Positions 6,592-13,763 of a stretch of DNA of 64,000 nucleotides are shown here, piece by piece. A program made the position numbers and the translations under genes. Under the pieces are notes generated by a model. It saw only the letters and a program-made list of their open reading frames with translations, did no database searches and was not told the origin of the DNA. Position 1 is the first letter of the stretch. The number at the start of each line of letters is the position of its first letter. Origin of the DNA: Thioalkalivibrio sp. ALJ12 (GTDB lineage: Bacteria; Pseudomonadota; Gammaproteobacteria; Ectothiorhodospirales; Ectothiorhodospiraceae); assembly GCF_000378305.1 (NCBI RefSeq), contig NZ_KB899538.1, positions 1,272,001-1,336,000 of the forward strand, read 5' to 3'.

Positions 6592-8895
6592 ATGCTCTAC
6601 GCAATTCTGTCAACATTCCTGGTGGCCGCGATCGCACCCGCGGTCCATCGTGTCACCGGTCGCGCCAGCGGCTGGGTGCTGGGGCTCCTCCCGGCCGCGC
6701 TGTTCCTCTATTTCCTGAGTTTCCTCCCTGCGGTCTCCGCCGGCGAGTCCATCGTGCTCAGCTGGCCCTGGCTGCCGGGGCTGGATATCCACCTGTCGTT
6801 CCTGGTGGACGGCCTGTCGCTGCTGTTCGCGCTGCTGATCTCGGGTATCGGGTTCTTCATCGTCACCTATGCCGGGCGCTATCTCGAGGGGCACCGCGAC
6901 CTCGGGCGCTTCTACGTGATTATCCTGGCCTTCATGGGCTCCATGCTGGGGCTGGTGCTGGCGGACAACCTCATTGCGATGTTCGTGTTCTGGGAGCTGA
7001 CCAGCATCACGTCCTATCTGCTGATCGGCTATAACCACGAGAACGCGGACGCCCGGAAGTACGCACTGCAGGGCCTGATTGTCACGGTCGGTGGCGGCCT
7101 GGCGCTGCTCGCCGGGATCATCATGCTGGCGATGGCCGGCGGCTCCTACGAGCTCTCCGAGATCCTGGCCAACGGCGATGTCGTCCGCGAACACGCGCTG
7201 TACCTGCCTTTACTGATTCTGATACTGATCGGGGCCTTTACCAAGTCGGCCCAGGTCCCGTTCCACTTCTGGCTGCCGCGTGCGATGGCCGCGCCGACGC
7301 CGGTCTCCGCCTATCTGCACTCCGCCACCATGGTGAAGGCCGGGGTGTACCTGATGGCGCGCCTGAATCCTTCGCTGGGTGGCACCGATATCTGGTTCAC
7401 CACGCTCGCGCTGTTCGGCGCGATCACCATGTTCACGGGCGTCTTCCTGGCCTTCCGCAGCACGGGCGTGAAGCAGGTCCTGGCCTATTCCACCGTGATG
7501 GCGCTGGGCACGCTGACCATGCTGATTGGTATCGGCACCGAGACCGCGCTGATGGCCGCGATGGCCTTCCTGCTGGCGCATTCTCTGTACAAGGGCGCGC
7601 TGTTCATGGTCGCCGGCATCCTCGACCACGAGGCCGGGGCCAAGGACTTCCTGCAAACCGGGGGGCTGCGCACCGCGCTGCCGATCACGGCCGCCTTCGC
7701 GATTCTTGCAGCGTTGTCGCTGGGTGGGGTTATTCCGCTGTTCGGCTTTGTTGCCAAGGAGCTGATGCTGGAGTCGGTGCTCGAGGCACCGGGTCTGGTG
7801 GGTATCCTGACGCTGCTGGCGGTACTGACCGCGATCCTCGGGGTGGCGGTCGCCGCGATCGTCGGCATCCGGCCGTGGTTCGGGGCTCGGGTGGAAACAC
7901 CCAAGACCCCGCACCACGAGGCACCGCCGGCGATGCTGGCCGGCCCGGTCGTGCTGGCGAGCCTGGGACTGATCTTTGGCCTTGGGCCGGGGCTGGCGGA
8001 CGACGGGCTGGTCAACGCCGCGGCGGCGAGCGTGCAGGGCGCGCCGGTGGATGGTTACCTGGCGCTGTGGCACGGCATTAACTGGCCGCTGGCGATCTCC
8101 GCGTTCAGCCTGGTCGCGGGTGGTCTGCTCTACTGGCGCTGGGAGCAGGCGCGTCGGGCCCTGGCCTGGGTCGATCGGGCCGCTGAATACGGCCCGGAGA
8201 AGGGCTACTTCAAGATGATGGATGGCCTGGTCTGGATCTCCGAATGGCAGACCCGGGTCCTGCAGAACGGCTATCTGCGCTACTACGTGATCGTGATCGT
8301 CGCGATGACCGCGGGCCTGGTCGGAGTGACCGCGCAGCTGTTCAACGTGAGTGTCGGCACGGCGCACTTCGAGCGCCTGCAGATCCACGAGATGGCCATT
8401 ATCGCCATCCTGGTGGCGTCGATGCTGTTCGCGGTGCTGACGCGCTCGCGTCTGGGCGCCGTGGCAGCGCTGGGCTCTCTGGGCTTTACGGTCGCCCTGG
8501 TGTACGTGCTGTACAGCGCGGCCGATGTGGGGATCACCCAGGTGCTGGTTGAGACCCTGACGGTAATCCTGCTGGTGCTGGTGCTGTTCCGCCTGCCGGG
8601 CTTCTTGAATCTGTCGTCTACCGCGCTGCGGCTGCGCGATGCCGGTATCGCGCTGGTCACCGGCGGCATGATCACGCTGCTGATGCTGAGCACAATGGAT
8701 GCGCGCCTGTTCGACTCGATCTCGCAGTACTTCATCGAGGAGTCGGAGCCCTCGGGCTATGGCCGTAACATCGTGAACGTGGTGCTGGTGGACTTCCGGG
8801 CACTGGATACGCTGGGCGAGATCTTCGTGCTGGCCCTGGCCGCGATCGGGGTGTACGCGATGATTCGCTTCCGTGCGGAGGACCACCGCCGATGA
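6592..8895 (+). CDS. mrpA: Mrp Na+/H+ antiporter subunit A
   Basis: 767 residues, the typical length of MrpA/MnhA. The N-terminal two thirds is a NuoL/ND5-like proton-channel subunit, with the key Glu in [16 protein letters not shown] and Lys in [17 protein letters not shown]. The C-terminal third, from about residue 570, is the MrpA-specific part related to MbhD/MbhE. In the Mrp complex it catalyses Na+ export driven by proton entry, essential for pH homeostasis in alkaliphiles. AAAAGGA lies about 12 bases before the ATG. It is the first gene of mrpABCDEFG and overlaps mrpB by ATGA. Confidence 0.97.
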
Positions 8896-9317
8896 ACATG
8901 CACTCGCTGATCCTGCGCACGGCCGGGCACTTTCTGCTGCCGCTGCTGCTGCTGTTCTCCGTGTTCCTGCTGCTGCGCGGCCACGACGAGCCGGGTGGCG
9001 GGTTTATCGGTGGCCTGGTCGCGGCGGCGGCGATCGTGTTGTACCTGTTTTCCATGGACATCCGCTCCGCGCGCAAGGTGCTGCGCGTGGACCCGCGCGA
9101 CCTGCTGGGTGCCGGCATGGTGCTGGCGGTCGTGAGCGCACTGCCCGCCGCCTTCCTGGGGCAGGCGTTCTTCACGGCCCAGTGGTGGGAATTCACGGCC
9201 CCGGTCTTCGGCGAGATCAAGCTCTCTACCGTGCTGATCTTCGATATCGGCGTTTATCTCGTCGTGATCGGGTCGGTGCTGACGATCATGCTCAACCTGG
9301 CGGAGGCAGAAGACTGA
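8892..9317 (+). CDS. mrpB: Mrp Na+/H+ antiporter subunit B
   Basis: 141 residues with four hydrophobic helices and the MnhB signature [20 protein letters not shown] near residues 35-55. A small membrane subunit needed for assembly of the Mrp antiporter. The start overlaps the mrpA stop (ATGA) and the stop overlaps the mrpC start (TGATG), showing translational coupling. Confidence 0.96.
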
Positions 9318-9664
9318 TGGAAGTCGTCATGGCCTTCGTGGTCGGCGGTATGTACGCCGCGGCCATCTACATGATGCTCCGGCGCTCGATCGTCAAGCTG
9401 GTGATCGGCCTGGTGCTGCTGTCGAACGCGGCCAACCTGCTGATCTTTACGCTGGCCGGCATGCTGCCGGGCGCGCCGCCGCTGATCCCGCCGGGTGCCA
9501 CGGTTCCTGAAGGGCTGTCGGCCGATCCGCTGGCGCAAGCCGTGGTGCTGACCGCGATCGTGATCGGCTTCGGCGTACTGGCATTCGCCGTAGTGTTGAT
9601 ACATCGCGCCTACGAGGTGGTGAAGGTCGATGATCTGGACCAGATGAAGGACACGGATCGATGA
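9317..9664 (+). CDS. mrpC: Mrp Na+/H+ antiporter subunit C (NuoK-like)
   Basis: 115 residues with three membrane helices and the NuoK/MnhC pattern [17 protein letters not shown] and [17 protein letters not shown]. The longer open frame in this phase starts inside mrpB; the true start is the ATG at 9317 overlapping the mrpB stop. It ends in an ATGA overlap with mrpD. Confidence 0.95.
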
Positions 9665-11166
9665 ATATGTCCGTTGCCCTTCCGGTCATCATCCCGCTGC
9701 TCGCCGGCGCGCTGTCGGTGATGTTCTGGCGCTCGCATTTCGCGCAGCGTGCGCTGGGCGTGCTCGGCACCGGCGCCATGCTGGCGGCCACCGTCTGGCT
9801 GCTGTTGGAGACCTGGGAGAACGGCCATGTCGTGATGGAGATGGGCTCCTGGCCGGCGCCGTTCGGGATCGTGCTGGTCTCCGACATGCTGGCGGCGATC
9901 ATGGTGATGCTGACTGGCATCATCGGCTTTGCGACCGCGATCTATTCGCTCTCGGGCATCGGCAAGATGTCGGAGAAGTTCGGCTACTACCCGTTGCTGC
10001 ATCTGCTGCTGGCGGGCGTGAACGGCGCGTTCCTGACCGGCGACATCTTCAACCTCTATGTCTGGTTCGAGGTGATGCTGGTCGCGTCGTTTGCGCTGCT
10101 GATCCTGGGTGGCGAGCGCTCGCAGATGGAAGGGGCGATCAAGTACGTCACCCTGAACCTGCTGTCGTCGATGATCTTCCTGACTGCGATCGGCCTGACC
10201 TACGGCCTGACCGGCACGCTGAACATGGCGGATATCGGCGACAAGCTCTCCACGGTGGAGGACACCGGGCTGATCACCGTGATCGCGATGCTGTATCTGG
10301 TCGCGTTCGGGGTGAAGGCGGCGGCGTTCCCGTTCTTCTTCTGGCTGCCGGCCTCTTATCACACGCCGAAGGTCGCGGTCTCCGCGCTGTTCGCGGGCCT
10401 GCTGACCAAGGTTGGGGTGTACGCGCTGTACCGCGTGTTCACACTGATCTTCAACCAGGATGTGGACTACACCCACGAGATCCTCCTGTGGGTGGCCGCG
10501 GCCACGATGCTGACCGGCGTGCTTGGGGCGGCCGCCCACTACGAGTTCCGGCGCATTCTGTCGTTCCACATCATCAGCCAGATCGGTTACATGATCATGG
10601 GTCTGGCACTGTTCACACCGCTGGCACTGGTCGGTGGGGTGTTCTACATCATGCACCACATCATCGTGAAGGCGAATCTGTTCCTGATCAGCGGGATCAC
10701 CTTCGTGATGAAGGGGACCCATGAGCTCAAACTGATGGGCGGGGTCTACCGGACGAACCCGATGCTGGGCGTGCTGTTCTTGATCCCGGCGCTGTCACTG
10801 GCGGGTCTGCCGCCACTGTCCGGGTTCTTCGCCAAGTTCATCATCATCCGCGCTGGTATCGAGGCCGAGGCCTACTGGGCGGTGGGCGTGGCTCTGCTGG
10901 TGGGTCTGCTGACGTTGTATTCGATGATCAAGATCTGGGCCGAGGTGTTCTGGAAGGCGCAGCCGGAGGGCGTCGAGGGCGAGCTCCGTGATGTCAGTTC
11001 GGGCCCGATGATCTGGATGTGGGTGCCGGTGATCATGCTGGCGCTGATGACCGTGGCCATTGGCCTGTACGGCGAGCCGATCTACCAGATGGCGGCGATG
11101 TCCGCCGAGCAGCTCCTGGATCCGTCGCAGTATATTGAGGCCGTGCTGGGAGAATCACGGCAATGA
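9661..11166 (+). CDS. mrpD: Mrp Na+/H+ antiporter subunit D (NuoN/ND2-like)
   Basis: 501 residues and about 14 membrane helices. It is the second antiporter-like subunit of the complex, homologous to NuoM/NuoN. The conserved Glu of the proton path is in [17 protein letters not shown] and the conserved Lys in [21 protein letters not shown]. The start overlaps mrpC and the stop overlaps mrpE (ATGA at both ends). Confidence 0.97.
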
Positions 11167-11636
11167 TCGCGCTGACCTGGAATATCGCGCTGGCCCTGAT
11201 CTGGGTGTTCCTGACCGGGAACTTCACAGGGGGCAATCTGCTGATCGGGTTCTTCCTCGGCTATGTCCTGCTGGCGTTCGCGCTGCGTGACAAGCCGGCC
11301 TTCGCGAGCTACGCGCGACGGGTGCCCAAGTTCATCGCCTTCATTGGGTTCTTCCTGTGGGAGCTGTTCCTGTCGAACCTGAAGGTCGCCTACGATGTGA
11401 TGACGCCGACGCACCACATGGTGCCGGGCGTGATTGCCTTTCCGCTGGATGCGCAGACCGATGGCGAGATCACGATCGTCGCGAACCTGATCTCGCTGAC
11501 ACCGGGCACCCTGAGCCTGGACGTCTCGACCGACCGGAAGGTGCTCTACATCCATGTAATGTACCTGGAAGACCGCGATGCGGTGATTCGGTCGATCAAG
11601 TATCTGGAACACCGGGCCCTGGAGGTCCTGCGCTAG
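11163..11636 (+). CDS. mrpE: Mrp Na+/H+ antiporter subunit E
   Basis: 157 residues: two N-terminal membrane helices followed by a soluble domain with the MnhE-type pattern VIAFPLDAQTDGEITIVANL and LTPGTLSLDVSTD. It overlaps mrpD by four bases and is followed after 15 bases by mrpF. MrpE is not found in the related Nuo complex and is thought to help assembly. Confidence 0.95.
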   Translation: MIALTWNIALALIWVFLTGNFTGGNLLIGFFLGYVLLAFALRDKPAFASYARRVPKFIAFIGFFLWELFLSNLKVAYDVMTPTHHMVPGVIAFPLDAQTDGEITIVANLISLTPGTLSLDVSTDRKVLYIHVMYLEDRDAVIRSIKYLEHRALEVLR

Positions 11637-11651
11637 GCGCGGGGGACACAG

Positions 11652-11927
11652 ATGTTCGAAATCGCCATCATCGTGGCCAATGTACTGCTCAGCATCTCCC
11701 TGGTGCTGGGGTTCTGGCGTCTCTATCTCGGGCCGACGCTGCCCGATCGCGTGGTGGCGCTGGAACTGATCGCGTCCCTGACCATTGGCTTTATCGCGGT
11801 GTACGTGATCTCCAGTGGCCGGACCCCGTTTATCGACGTGGCGATGGTGCTGGCTCTGACCGCCTTCCTCGCCGCGGTCGGATTTGCCCGCTATCTCGAG
11901 AAAGGGGGGCACCGCGAAGATGATTGA
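11652..11927 (+). CDS. mrpF: Mrp Na+/H+ antiporter subunit F
   Basis: 91 residues with three membrane helices and the MnhF motif LGPTLPDRVVALELIAS, followed by an Asp in the third helix region (FIDVAMVLALTAF). It overlaps the start of mrpG by eight bases. Confidence 0.94.
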   Translation: MFEIAIIVANVLLSISLVLGFWRLYLGPTLPDRVVALELIASLTIGFIAVYVISSGRTPFIDVAMVLALTAFLAAVGFARYLEKGGHREDD

Positions 11928-12315
11928 GCTACTGACGGCGCTGTTCCTGGTGTCCGGGGCCGCTTTCATGGTGGTGGCCGCGCTGGGGCTTGTCCGCATG
12001 CCGGATTTGCCGATGCGCCTGCACGCCACCACCAAGGCGGGTGTGCTTGGGGCCGGCCTGATGATGGTGGGGGTCGCCGTCTATTTCGGCGACGGGGGCG
12101 TGACCACCCGCGCCGTGGCAGTGATTGGTTTTCTGCTGCTGACGGCCCCGGTGGCCGCGCATGCGATCGGCCGTGCAGGGTATTTTGTCGGGGTGCCGTT
12201 GTGGGAACACACACGCTCCGACGAACTCAAGGGTCGCTACGACAACAAGACCCACACCCTTGCCTCGCCCCCGGAGATGAACGAGTCTTCCTCGGACGAC
12301 GAACCCCGACGCTAA
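11920..12315 (+). CDS. mrpG: Mrp Na+/H+ antiporter subunit G
   Basis: 131 residues, three membrane helices, with the MnhG signature GLVRMPDLPMRLHATTKAGV at residues about 25-44. The start is the ATG at 11920; the frame is open to 11884 but that lies in mrpF. A hydrophilic acidic tail of about 30 residues follows the last helix. It is the last gene of the operon; no terminator for this strand was seen downstream. Confidence 0.94.
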   Translation: MIELLTALFLVSGAAFMVVAALGLVRMPDLPMRLHATTKAGVLGAGLMMVGVAVYFGDGGVTTRAVAVIGFLLLTAPVAAHAIGRAGYFVGVPLWEHTRSDELKGRYDNKTHTLASPPEMNESSSDDEPRR

Positions 12316-12350: not shown

Positions 12351-12377
12351 AAAAAAGCCGGGACGCAAGGTCCCGGC
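12351..12377 (-). terminator. Rho-independent terminator of the SOR-like gene
   Basis: On the minus strand a perfect 8-bp stem (GCCGGGAC/GTCCCGGC) with a 5-base loop is followed directly by six T. It lies about 60 bases past the stop of the gene at 12437-12889. Read on the plus strand the hairpin lacks a T tract, so it probably does not stop the mrp transcript efficiently. Confidence 0.88.
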
Positions 12378-12436: not shown

Positions 12437-12889
12437 TCAGGCCGCCTGATGGGTTTCCTTCGCCTCGCGAGCGGCCTTGGCCTCTTCCGGCGAATAGGCC
12501 GCGCCAGACCAGAGCATTTCGTAGGCAATCTCTTCGTTACCGTTTTCGCACAGCTCCAGGACCTCCTGGAACAGCGGCTGGAAGGTCTCGCTGCGATGCG
12601 AGGCTTCGTGTTCTTCGAAGCTGCGCCAGAAGGTGATGATCAGCGCCTCCTTGTCCTTCATCGGGCTCTCCACGGCCTGGCCGATGGTCGAGCCCTCGTT
12701 GGAGACGGCGCCGGAATTCAGCGCGACAAAGCCGCCGACGAAGCCGGTGTCCGAGTGATAGGTCTTTACGTTCTCGCACAGCATGGCGACGCGCTCCTGC
12801 AGGTCGTCGATGCTGTACTCCGGCTTCAGGATCACGCGGTTGATGGTGACGACGCCGTCGGCCGGGAAGTTGTGGATCAGCTGGCTCAT
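12437..12889 (-). CDS. Small dimeric alpha/beta-barrel protein resembling half of sulfur oxygenase reductase
   Basis: 150 residues, cytoplasmic. It resembles the ABM/SOR ferredoxin-like fold. Seen in the sequence: Cys38 before a Gly-Phe-Val-Gly-Gly turn, an FWRSFEEHEASH stretch giving His94 and His98, Cys114, and Glu119, Glu120 and Glu124. As remembered, sulfur oxygenase reductase (about 310 aa) uses Cys31, His86, His90, Glu114 and Cys101/104, so the order and spacing (38 to 94 versus 31 to 86) match well. It may therefore bind iron and act on sulfane sulfur, but this is inference; a plain ABM-domain protein is the alternative. A very strong ribosome binding site (AAAGGAGG) precedes the ATG. 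It is transcribed away from an ArsR-rhodanese regulator and ends in a good terminator. Confidence 0.7.
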   Translation of the reverse strand: MSQLIHNFPADGVVTINRVILKPEYSIDDLQERVAMLCENVKTYHSDTGFVGGFVALNSGAVSNEGSTIGQAVESPMKDKEALIITFWRSFEEHEASHRSETFQPLFQEVLELCENGNEEIAYEMLWSGAAYSPEEAKAAREAKETHQAA

Positions 12890-12937
12890 GGTTGTCCTCC
12901 TTTCGGGAACGGGTACCCCTCGGTTGGGGCACGGCTT

Positions 12938-12991
12938 GTTGGTTAGTTTGTTACCAACTGCTGATGAATAGTTCCTGAGTAATCTAGTCAA
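12938..12991 (-). promoter_or_regulatory. Putative promoter and operator of the SOR-like gene
   Basis: On the minus strand TTGACT (12991-12986) and TATTCA (12970-12965) are spaced by 15 bases, a slightly short sigma-70 pair. Just downstream, at the expected transcription start, is an inverted repeat GTTGGT/ACCAAC (arms 12938-12943 and 12953-12958). Its position would suit repression by the divergent ArsR-type protein. The promoter call is tentative. Confidence 0.4.
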
Positions 12992-13088
12992 GAAAAAATT
13001 CGGTGCAACAAACCCGCGTTCCTGTTCAGGCCTTGCGCGTCAGGGCAGGGCGGTCTACCTTGCCGACTTCCCCATCAGGAATGCGTTC

Positions 13089-13763
13089 ATGGCTGATCGC
13101 GAACTGAAAGATTTGCTCTATGACCAGGTCGCCCGGATCGGCAAGGCGGCGTCCAGCCCGAAGCGGCTGGAACTGATCGAGATCCTGGTGCAGGGGGAGA
13201 AGAGCGTCGATCAGCTCGCGGCGGATGCCCAGATCAGCGTCAAGCTGGCCAGTGCCCACCTGAAGGACCTCCGCCAGGCCTGCCTGGTGGAGTCCCGGCG
13301 CGATGGACGGCGTATCTTCTACCGGCTGGCAGACCCACGTGTGGCCGATTTCTGGGTCGTGCTGCGCGAGCTGGCCGAGAGCCGCTTGCTGGAGTTGCAG
13401 GGCGCTGTGCGCGACATGGCGGCCAGTGCCGGCGACATGGTGCCGCTAGGTGGCCAGGAGTTGCTGGAGCAGGCACGCAAGGGTGAGTTGATCGTGCTGG
13501 ACGTTCGTCCGGACACCGAGTACGCCACTGCGCACCTGCCGCACGCCCGGTCCATTCCTTTGCGCGAGCTAAAGCAGCGCCTGGACGAGTTGGCGCCGGA
13601 TGTCCCGGTCGTTGCCTACTGCCGGGGCCCGTACTGTCTGATGGCGCGCGACGCCGTCGCGATCCTGGGTGAGCATGGCTTCCGCGCCGTCCGTCTGGAT
13701 GACGGTGTGGCCGAGTGGCGCCACCAGGGGCTCCCTCTGGAGCAAGGCCCCGTCGATCGTTAG
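13089..13763 (+). CDS. ArsR-family regulator fused to a rhodanese domain
   Basis: 224 residues. Residues 1-95 form an ArsR/SmtB winged helix (KRLELIEILVQGEKSVDQLA, then SAHLKDLRQACLVESRRDGRR, a wing). Residues about 118-220 form a rhodanese domain (LIVLDVRPDTEYATAHLPHA) with the active loop CRGPYC at Cys178-Cys183. Such fusions are thought to sense or handle sulfane sulfur and control sulfur genes. The start at 13089 has AGGAAT about 7 bases upstream. It is divergent from the SOR-like gene, so autoregulation and control of that gene are likely. The second Cys in the active loop could allow a disulfide or trisulfide switch. Confidence 0.88.
   Translation: MADRELKDLLYDQVARIGKAASSPKRLELIEILVQGEKSVDQLAADAQISVKLASAHLKDLRQACLVESRRDGRRIFYRLADPRVADFWVVLRELAESRLLELQGAVRDMAASAGDMVPLGGQELLEQARKGELIVLDVRPDTEYATAHLPHARSIPLRELKQRLDELAPDVPVVAYCRGPYCLMARDAVAILGEHGFRAVRLDDGVAEWRHQGLPLEQGPVDR

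Follow-up and report, generated by a model that had tools for sequence, protein, structure and literature searches.

A conserved half-size relative of sulfur oxygenase reductase with a predicted iron site in sulfur-oxidizing bacteria and their phages

Results

We analysed a stretch of 64,000 nucleotides from Thioalkalivibrio sp. ALJ12 (the window), in which a half-size gene resembling sulfur oxygenase reductase (SOR) lies at 12437 to 12889 on the minus strand. Its 150-residue product, with C38, H94, H98, C114, E119, E120 and E124 in the translation, has the Cys/His/His/Glu layout at about half the length of SOR that a preliminary description had reported; H94, H98 and E120 are predicted iron ligands, and C38 is predicted to be persulfidable. 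The very strong ribosome binding site and the terminator of its own that had been ascribed to the gene were both found, i.e., a Shine-Dalgarno AAAGGAGG, read from the sequence, at 12896 to 12903 (minus strand), 6 nt 5' of the ATG, and an intrinsic terminator at 12377 to 12357 (minus strand; GCCGGGAC-CTTGC-GTCCCGGC-TTTTTT). Upstream lie an IscR type-1-like site, TTTTCTTGACTAGATTACTCAGGAAC, at 12971 to 12996 on the minus strand (about 82 to 107 nt 5' of the ATG) and a divergent gene for an ArsR-rhodanese fusion regulator. Open reading frames at 8892 to 12315 resemble an Mrp-type multisubunit Na+/H+ antiporter operon, which ends just short of the terminator of the half-size gene.

Relatives at 70 to 100% identity occur in hundreds of genomes, and mean column identity across 39 non-redundant half-size sequences is 82%; thus, 12437 to 12889 is no chance open reading frame. 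Among 87 half-size sequences, C38, H45, H94, H98, C114, E119 and E120 are invariant and E124 is variable. The predicted AF2 model (pLDDT 91.4) is a single alpha+beta domain of ABM/SOR topology, in which C38 lies in the first helix, one helix bears both H94 and H98, and E120 opens the last strand. The protein is small and soluble-looking, and its family is undescribed, unnamed and extremely conserved. In one genome, a partial second copy lies just 3' of the intact gene (G273:C1:1972508-1972609; C-terminal 34 residues, 71% identity).

The survey of the family covered Pseudomonadota. The half-size gene is present in 34 of 58 relatives and in 8 genomes of a phylum-wide sample of 299; before profiles were applied, genomes had either a copy of about 70% identity or more or no match at all. 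Profile searches brought in a shorter form with 32 to 39% identity to the window protein (subfamily II; the window protein belongs to subfamily I), and within the class, subfamily I or II was then found in 48 of 232 genomes. Both subfamilies occur together in three genomes. Across the 232 genomes, dsrA is over cut-off in 78 and soxB in 99. All 48 carriers have dsrA or soxB and by this measure are sulfur oxidizers, as opposed to 58 of 184 non-carriers (106 of 232 overall), with a Fisher p of 2.6e-20 that is only indicative because the genomes are related; for dsrA alone, the counts are 42 of 48 and 36 of 184. The window's genome has two soxB genes and no dsrA over cut-off. Two dsrA-bearing genomes of 1.0 to 1.1 Mb carry subfamily I, suggesting its retention during genome reduction. 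Full-length SOR was found in 13 of 58 relatives, several of which have the half-size gene alongside it, and is absent from the window's genome. Thioalkalivibrio relatives have two clearly distinct full-length SOR types, sometimes both in one genome.

Bacterial gene context is uninformative because neighbours differ by lineage, and none is conserved beyond single lineages: the Thiobacillus loci lie near mutL/amiC and an S24-type gene, and other loci have cbb3 oxidase or sec genes close by. In the bacterial loci examined, the half-size gene was not in an operon with sulfur genes (sox, dsr or shdr clusters). In two genomes, a ccoNOPG-like cluster for cbb3 oxidase directly precedes a subfamily II gene. 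Alvin_2515, taken from a transcriptome paper and suspected to be a homologue, proved to be SgpD.

SOR has about 308 residues in two fused ferredoxin-like domains and forms a 24-mer hollow sphere with O2-dependent sulfur oxygenase and reductase activity. Before profiles were used, the window protein as a single sequence gave only a faint SOR match; the match to the SOR family is weak for all 39 members (best E 2.8e-4), and hhalign of subfamily I alone against SOR is likewise weak (probability 32%). A profile of 48 members from both subfamilies has SOR as its top match in the PDB (E 7.8e-6); all of its seven best matches are to the SOR N-terminal domain, and hhalign of the two-subfamily profile against Thioalkalivibrio SORs gives a P of 5.9e-6. 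Twenty-two columns are invariant across the two subfamilies. Four of these hold C38, H94, H98 and E120, which the joint alignment places on SOR C31, H86, H90 and E114, and replacement of any one of the latter by Ala abolishes SOR activity (PMC7398979). The ligand set H-x3-H...E of SOR is thus matched by H94, H98 and E120, which are predicted to bind iron. The carboxylate had earlier been placed in Glu119-124; E120 fits this role, while E119 varies across subfamilies and E124 varies among the half-size sequences. C38, the invariant counterpart of catalytic Cys31, lies 3 to 5 residues farther from the GFVG motif than in SOR, and therefore the Cys may sit differently. The Cys101/Cys104 pair of SOR, mutants of which lose activity about ten-fold (PMC7398979), is reduced to the single C114, which aligns with C101, varies across the subfamilies and is missing in some subfamily II members.

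The curated SOR cut-offs are missed (Pfam PF07682, 16.1 vs 25 bits; NCBIfam NF047630, 17.9 vs 400 bits), and the protein has one domain where SOR has two. In a tree whose root is arbitrary, SOR stands apart from the half-size proteins, and viral copies are nested among subfamily II. By length, cut-off and cysteine pair, the half-size protein is not SOR (EC 1.13.11.55; PDB 6m35, 2cb2). Judged by profile and alignment, its resemblance to the N-terminal domain of SOR, with the same fold and four matched residues, reflects true homology in which the catalytic set is conserved, and its mode of action is probably that of the SOR iron/persulfide centre. The SOR-like reading of the preliminary description was in this way borne out and sharpened.

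The fold of the AF2 model is common to SOR and all ABM proteins; therefore, fold alone is indecisive, and sequence profile and residues decide. In the structural comparison with SOR and ABM proteins envisaged in the preliminary description, the match is not to ABM proteins only, as SOR is among the longest alignments (2cb2, Z 11.6 over 123 residues), but ABM dimers reach higher Z over about 97 residues, with SnoaB at the top (Z 14.3). ABM-superfamily dimers (SnoaB, IsdG/IsdI, YgiN) have the same dimeric alpha+beta barrel fold at about 100 to 150 residues; unlike SOR, they are not preferred by the half-size sequence profile. Pfam ABM (PF03992) gives a weak match of 14.0 bits, below the cut-off of 23.1. 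The best ABM protein in the PDB profile search is IsdI, a single weak match (query 75 to 112 on chain 46 to 83) with E 0.56 vs 7.8e-6 for SOR. The haem-degrading IsdG/IsdI enzymes have an Asn-Trp-His catalytic triad with a haem-ligand His; in what we take to be the IsdI numbering, this His would fall on the invariant F107 of the half-size protein. We know of no ABM-superfamily dimer with a His-x3-His plus Glu set and a Cys. PDB matches to triosephosphate isomerase (E about 0.02) were taken as chance.

The GTTGGT-N9-ACCAAC repeat at 12938 to 12958, previously proposed as operator, exists but is not conserved in relatives, even within the genus; the family-wide element is that at 12971 to 12996. 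De novo search in 69 non-redundant upstreams of subfamily I genes yielded the motif AATAcTTGACTAATTTACTCAG about 60 to 105 nt 5' of the genes, with a likelihood of 710 vs 342 to 359 in shuffles. A weight matrix built from the subfamily I sites scores 47 of 50 iscR upstreams of relatives above 99% of background, and its sole matches above 12 bits in the 64-kb window are the two strands of 12970 to 12996. Positions 12971 to 12995 agree with the IscR type-1 consensus, ATASYYGACTRWWWYAGTCRRSTAT (PMC6599224), at 19 of 25 positions, the joint best in 64 kb; because shuffles also reach 17 to 19, support for an IscR-type site comes from conservation of the motif before subfamily I and iscR genes. From this conservation and the fit to the type-1 consensus, IscR is predicted to bind at 12971 to 12996 and before subfamily I genes generally. 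Six further subfamily I loci, a hold-out that is not fully independent because at least one motif-bearing locus repeats a matrix site, include three with the motif, unreached by any shuffle, and one more in which it is weaker. The motif was found in 1 of 14 subfamily II upstreams and in 0 of 8 upstreams of full-length SOR, and is absent from most viral copies and from two roughly 1-Mb genomes. A hand-written CTGAGTA-N4-TACTCAG pattern failed as a motif and was replaced by the de novo motif. Two IscR-like genes (paralogues) are present in the window's genome, each with a type-1-like site upstream, and both are among the 47; the strict pattern TTGACTANNTTACTCRG has no match before iscR in this genome, whereas the weight matrix does match.

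The ArsR-rhodanese regulator with CRGPYC that had been described as divergent from the half-size gene is indeed there, at 13089 to 13763 on the plus strand; it has 224 residues, and Pfam HTH_5 (36.8 bits) and Rhodanese (52.8 bits) are both above cut-off. Like the ArsR sulfane-sulfur repressors SqrR/BigR and SoxR/sHdrR, it has an ArsR-type HTH and belongs to a sulfur oxidizer. It differs from them in the rhodanese fusion and in the score against the BigR NCBIfam model (49.9 bits, below the cut-off of 155). Moreover, BigR/SqrR proteins have two conserved cysteines in the ArsR domain, whereas the neighbour has only C65, which is H, N or R in relatives; the rhodanese cysteines C178 and C183, both in CRGPYC, are conserved. 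The regulator adjoins the half-size gene in 28 of 114 loci (strain duplicates included), all in one Thioalkalivibrio subclade. The compact sulfane-sulfur response that the preliminary description had seen in the gene pair may hold in this subclade; with the neighbour in only these loci and C65 not conserved, this regulatory reading is weaker than the SOR-like one, and family-wide Fe-S/iron homeostasis plus sulfur oxidation is the better link. In eight ArsR-rhodanese loci, the window's strain not among them, an exact AACTTC-N5-GAAGTT palindrome lies about 80 nt 5' of the half-size gene; it is a candidate second operator, possibly for the ArsR-rhodanese protein.

Subfamily II is also present on 26 IMG/VR contigs, taken as viral from the IMG/VR assignment and the phage genes that they carry. 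These contigs were found only with a profile including subfamily II; subfamily I by itself had no match among viral, plasmid and phage sequences. On 10 of the 26 contigs there is a dsrC gene, mostly about 124 nt upstream of the half-size gene and on the same strand; iscU adjoins the half-size gene on four (two near-identical viruses), and iscA also lies beside some copies. The half-size gene lies just downstream of dsrC on 8 of the 54 recovered phage contigs with dsrC. Some contigs with the half-size gene also carry a T4-type baseplate wedge gp53 and a tail gene, and on two of them gp53, dsrC and the half-size gene occur together. By their pairwise dN/dS, mostly 0.03 to 0.3, the viral copies are under purifying selection, and they keep C38, H94, H98 and E120. 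No copy was found in the cultured phages of INPHARED, and no PHROG family matches the gene. In several phage DsrC copies, the C-terminus reads ...LPKPTGCV and has only one Cys; the other Cys that is conserved in canonical DsrC is lacking. Two papers describe auxiliary genes of sulfur-oxidizer phages (dsrA, dsrC/tusE, soxYZ), as well as nifU and iscA (PMC8190135, PMC4164917); the contigs here likewise carry dsrC, nifU/iscU and iscA. The half-size gene, which is not named in the passages of these papers that the search covered, is a candidate new auxiliary gene.

Discussion

We propose, with a probability of roughly 0.5, that the half-size protein is a non-haem-iron enzyme of the SOR type that acts on cytoplasmic persulfide or polysulfide and is linked to Fe-S supply. 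Its single domain is homologous to the N-terminal half of SOR, the catalytic one. Because each product has one SOR/ABM domain, the protein probably works as a homodimer, most likely as an alpha+beta barrel of the kind whose two halves are fused in SOR. H94, H98 and E120 would hold one mononuclear non-haem iron, C38 would take up sulfane sulfur as a persulfide, and the iron/Cys pair would oxygenate or disproportionate cytoplasmic persulfide or polysulfide in sulfur-oxidizing bacteria. An O2-dependent reaction fits poorly with the carrier Halochromatium, a phototroph. An IscR-type Fe-S sensor would set the synthesis of subfamily I, with high levels whenever Fe-S clusters run short; the ArsR-rhodanese regulator of this Thioalkalivibrio subclade may contribute a sulfane-sulfur signal. 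With their diverged copy, often beside dsrC or iscU, phages of sulfur oxidizers would presumably steer the same sulfur flux. ETHE1-type persulfide dioxygenase, too, acts on persulfide through a mononuclear 2-His-1-carboxylate iron site, the site type and substrate proposed here, but has an unrelated metallo-beta-lactamase fold; Pfam and NCBIfam searches gave no match to a metallo-beta-lactamase domain in the half-size protein, and its predicted fold is different.

Other explanations have to be weighed against this proposal. A possible, though less probable, one is that the protein is a carrier of sulfur, and perhaps iron, with no oxygenase activity, in which a C38 persulfide near the iron site would feed IscU Fe-S assembly or DsrC/TusE-type carriers. 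The promoter motif of IscR type shared with iscR, the phage copies adjoining iscU and iscA or dsrC, the presence of only one invariant Cys across both subfamilies and a mean identity of 82%, which suggests partner surfaces, all agree with such a role. However, an invariant 2-His-1-Glu set is what a mononuclear iron enzyme would have, whereas DsrC and TusA carriers need none, and iscU was not a neighbour in the bacterial genomes examined. It is unlikely that an SOR-descended iron enzyme here has another substrate or is mainly protective, clearing harmful reactive sulfur or O2 under Fe-S stress rather than serving energy metabolism: restriction to dsrA/soxB genomes and the pairing with dsrC in phages both speak against this, even though the IscR-type motif points to stress or Fe-S limitation, the gene stands separately, outside sox, dsr and shdr clusters, and some relatives have full-length SOR as well.

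Least probable, and by our estimate very improbable, is an ordinary ABM-fold protein, either a cofactor-free oxygenase or a haem-binding protein of the IsdG type, in which the His/Glu set is no metal site. The Z-score of SnoaB and those of other ABM proteins, together with the 14 bits to Pfam ABM, would be expected of such a protein; the sequence profile nevertheless favours SOR over every ABM protein, all four SOR-essential residues are invariant across subfamilies at 32 to 39% identity, and in the genomes sampled the gene is restricted to sulfur oxidizers.

For sulfur-oxidizing bacteria, it is an open question how cytoplasmic sulfane sulfur is oxidized and how this flux stays separate from Fe-S assembly, and the half-size protein, highly conserved and confined to sulfur oxidizers in our sample, offers a testable active site. 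Tentatively, and with rather more doubt than confidence in the whole, we suggest that single-domain, homodimeric iron enzymes of the SOR type form a class not described before, which in sulfur-oxidizing proteobacteria would process cytoplasmic sulfane sulfur under the control of IscR, and which phages would carry as a new auxiliary metabolic gene coupled to DsrC/IscU. If the proposal is true, no other living model would stand closer to the ancestor of SOR before fusion. Through the iscR-type promoter, sulfur oxidation would for the first time be tied to Fe-S sensing, and with the phage copies adjoining dsrC, marine sulfur cycling would gain a new viral sulfur gene.
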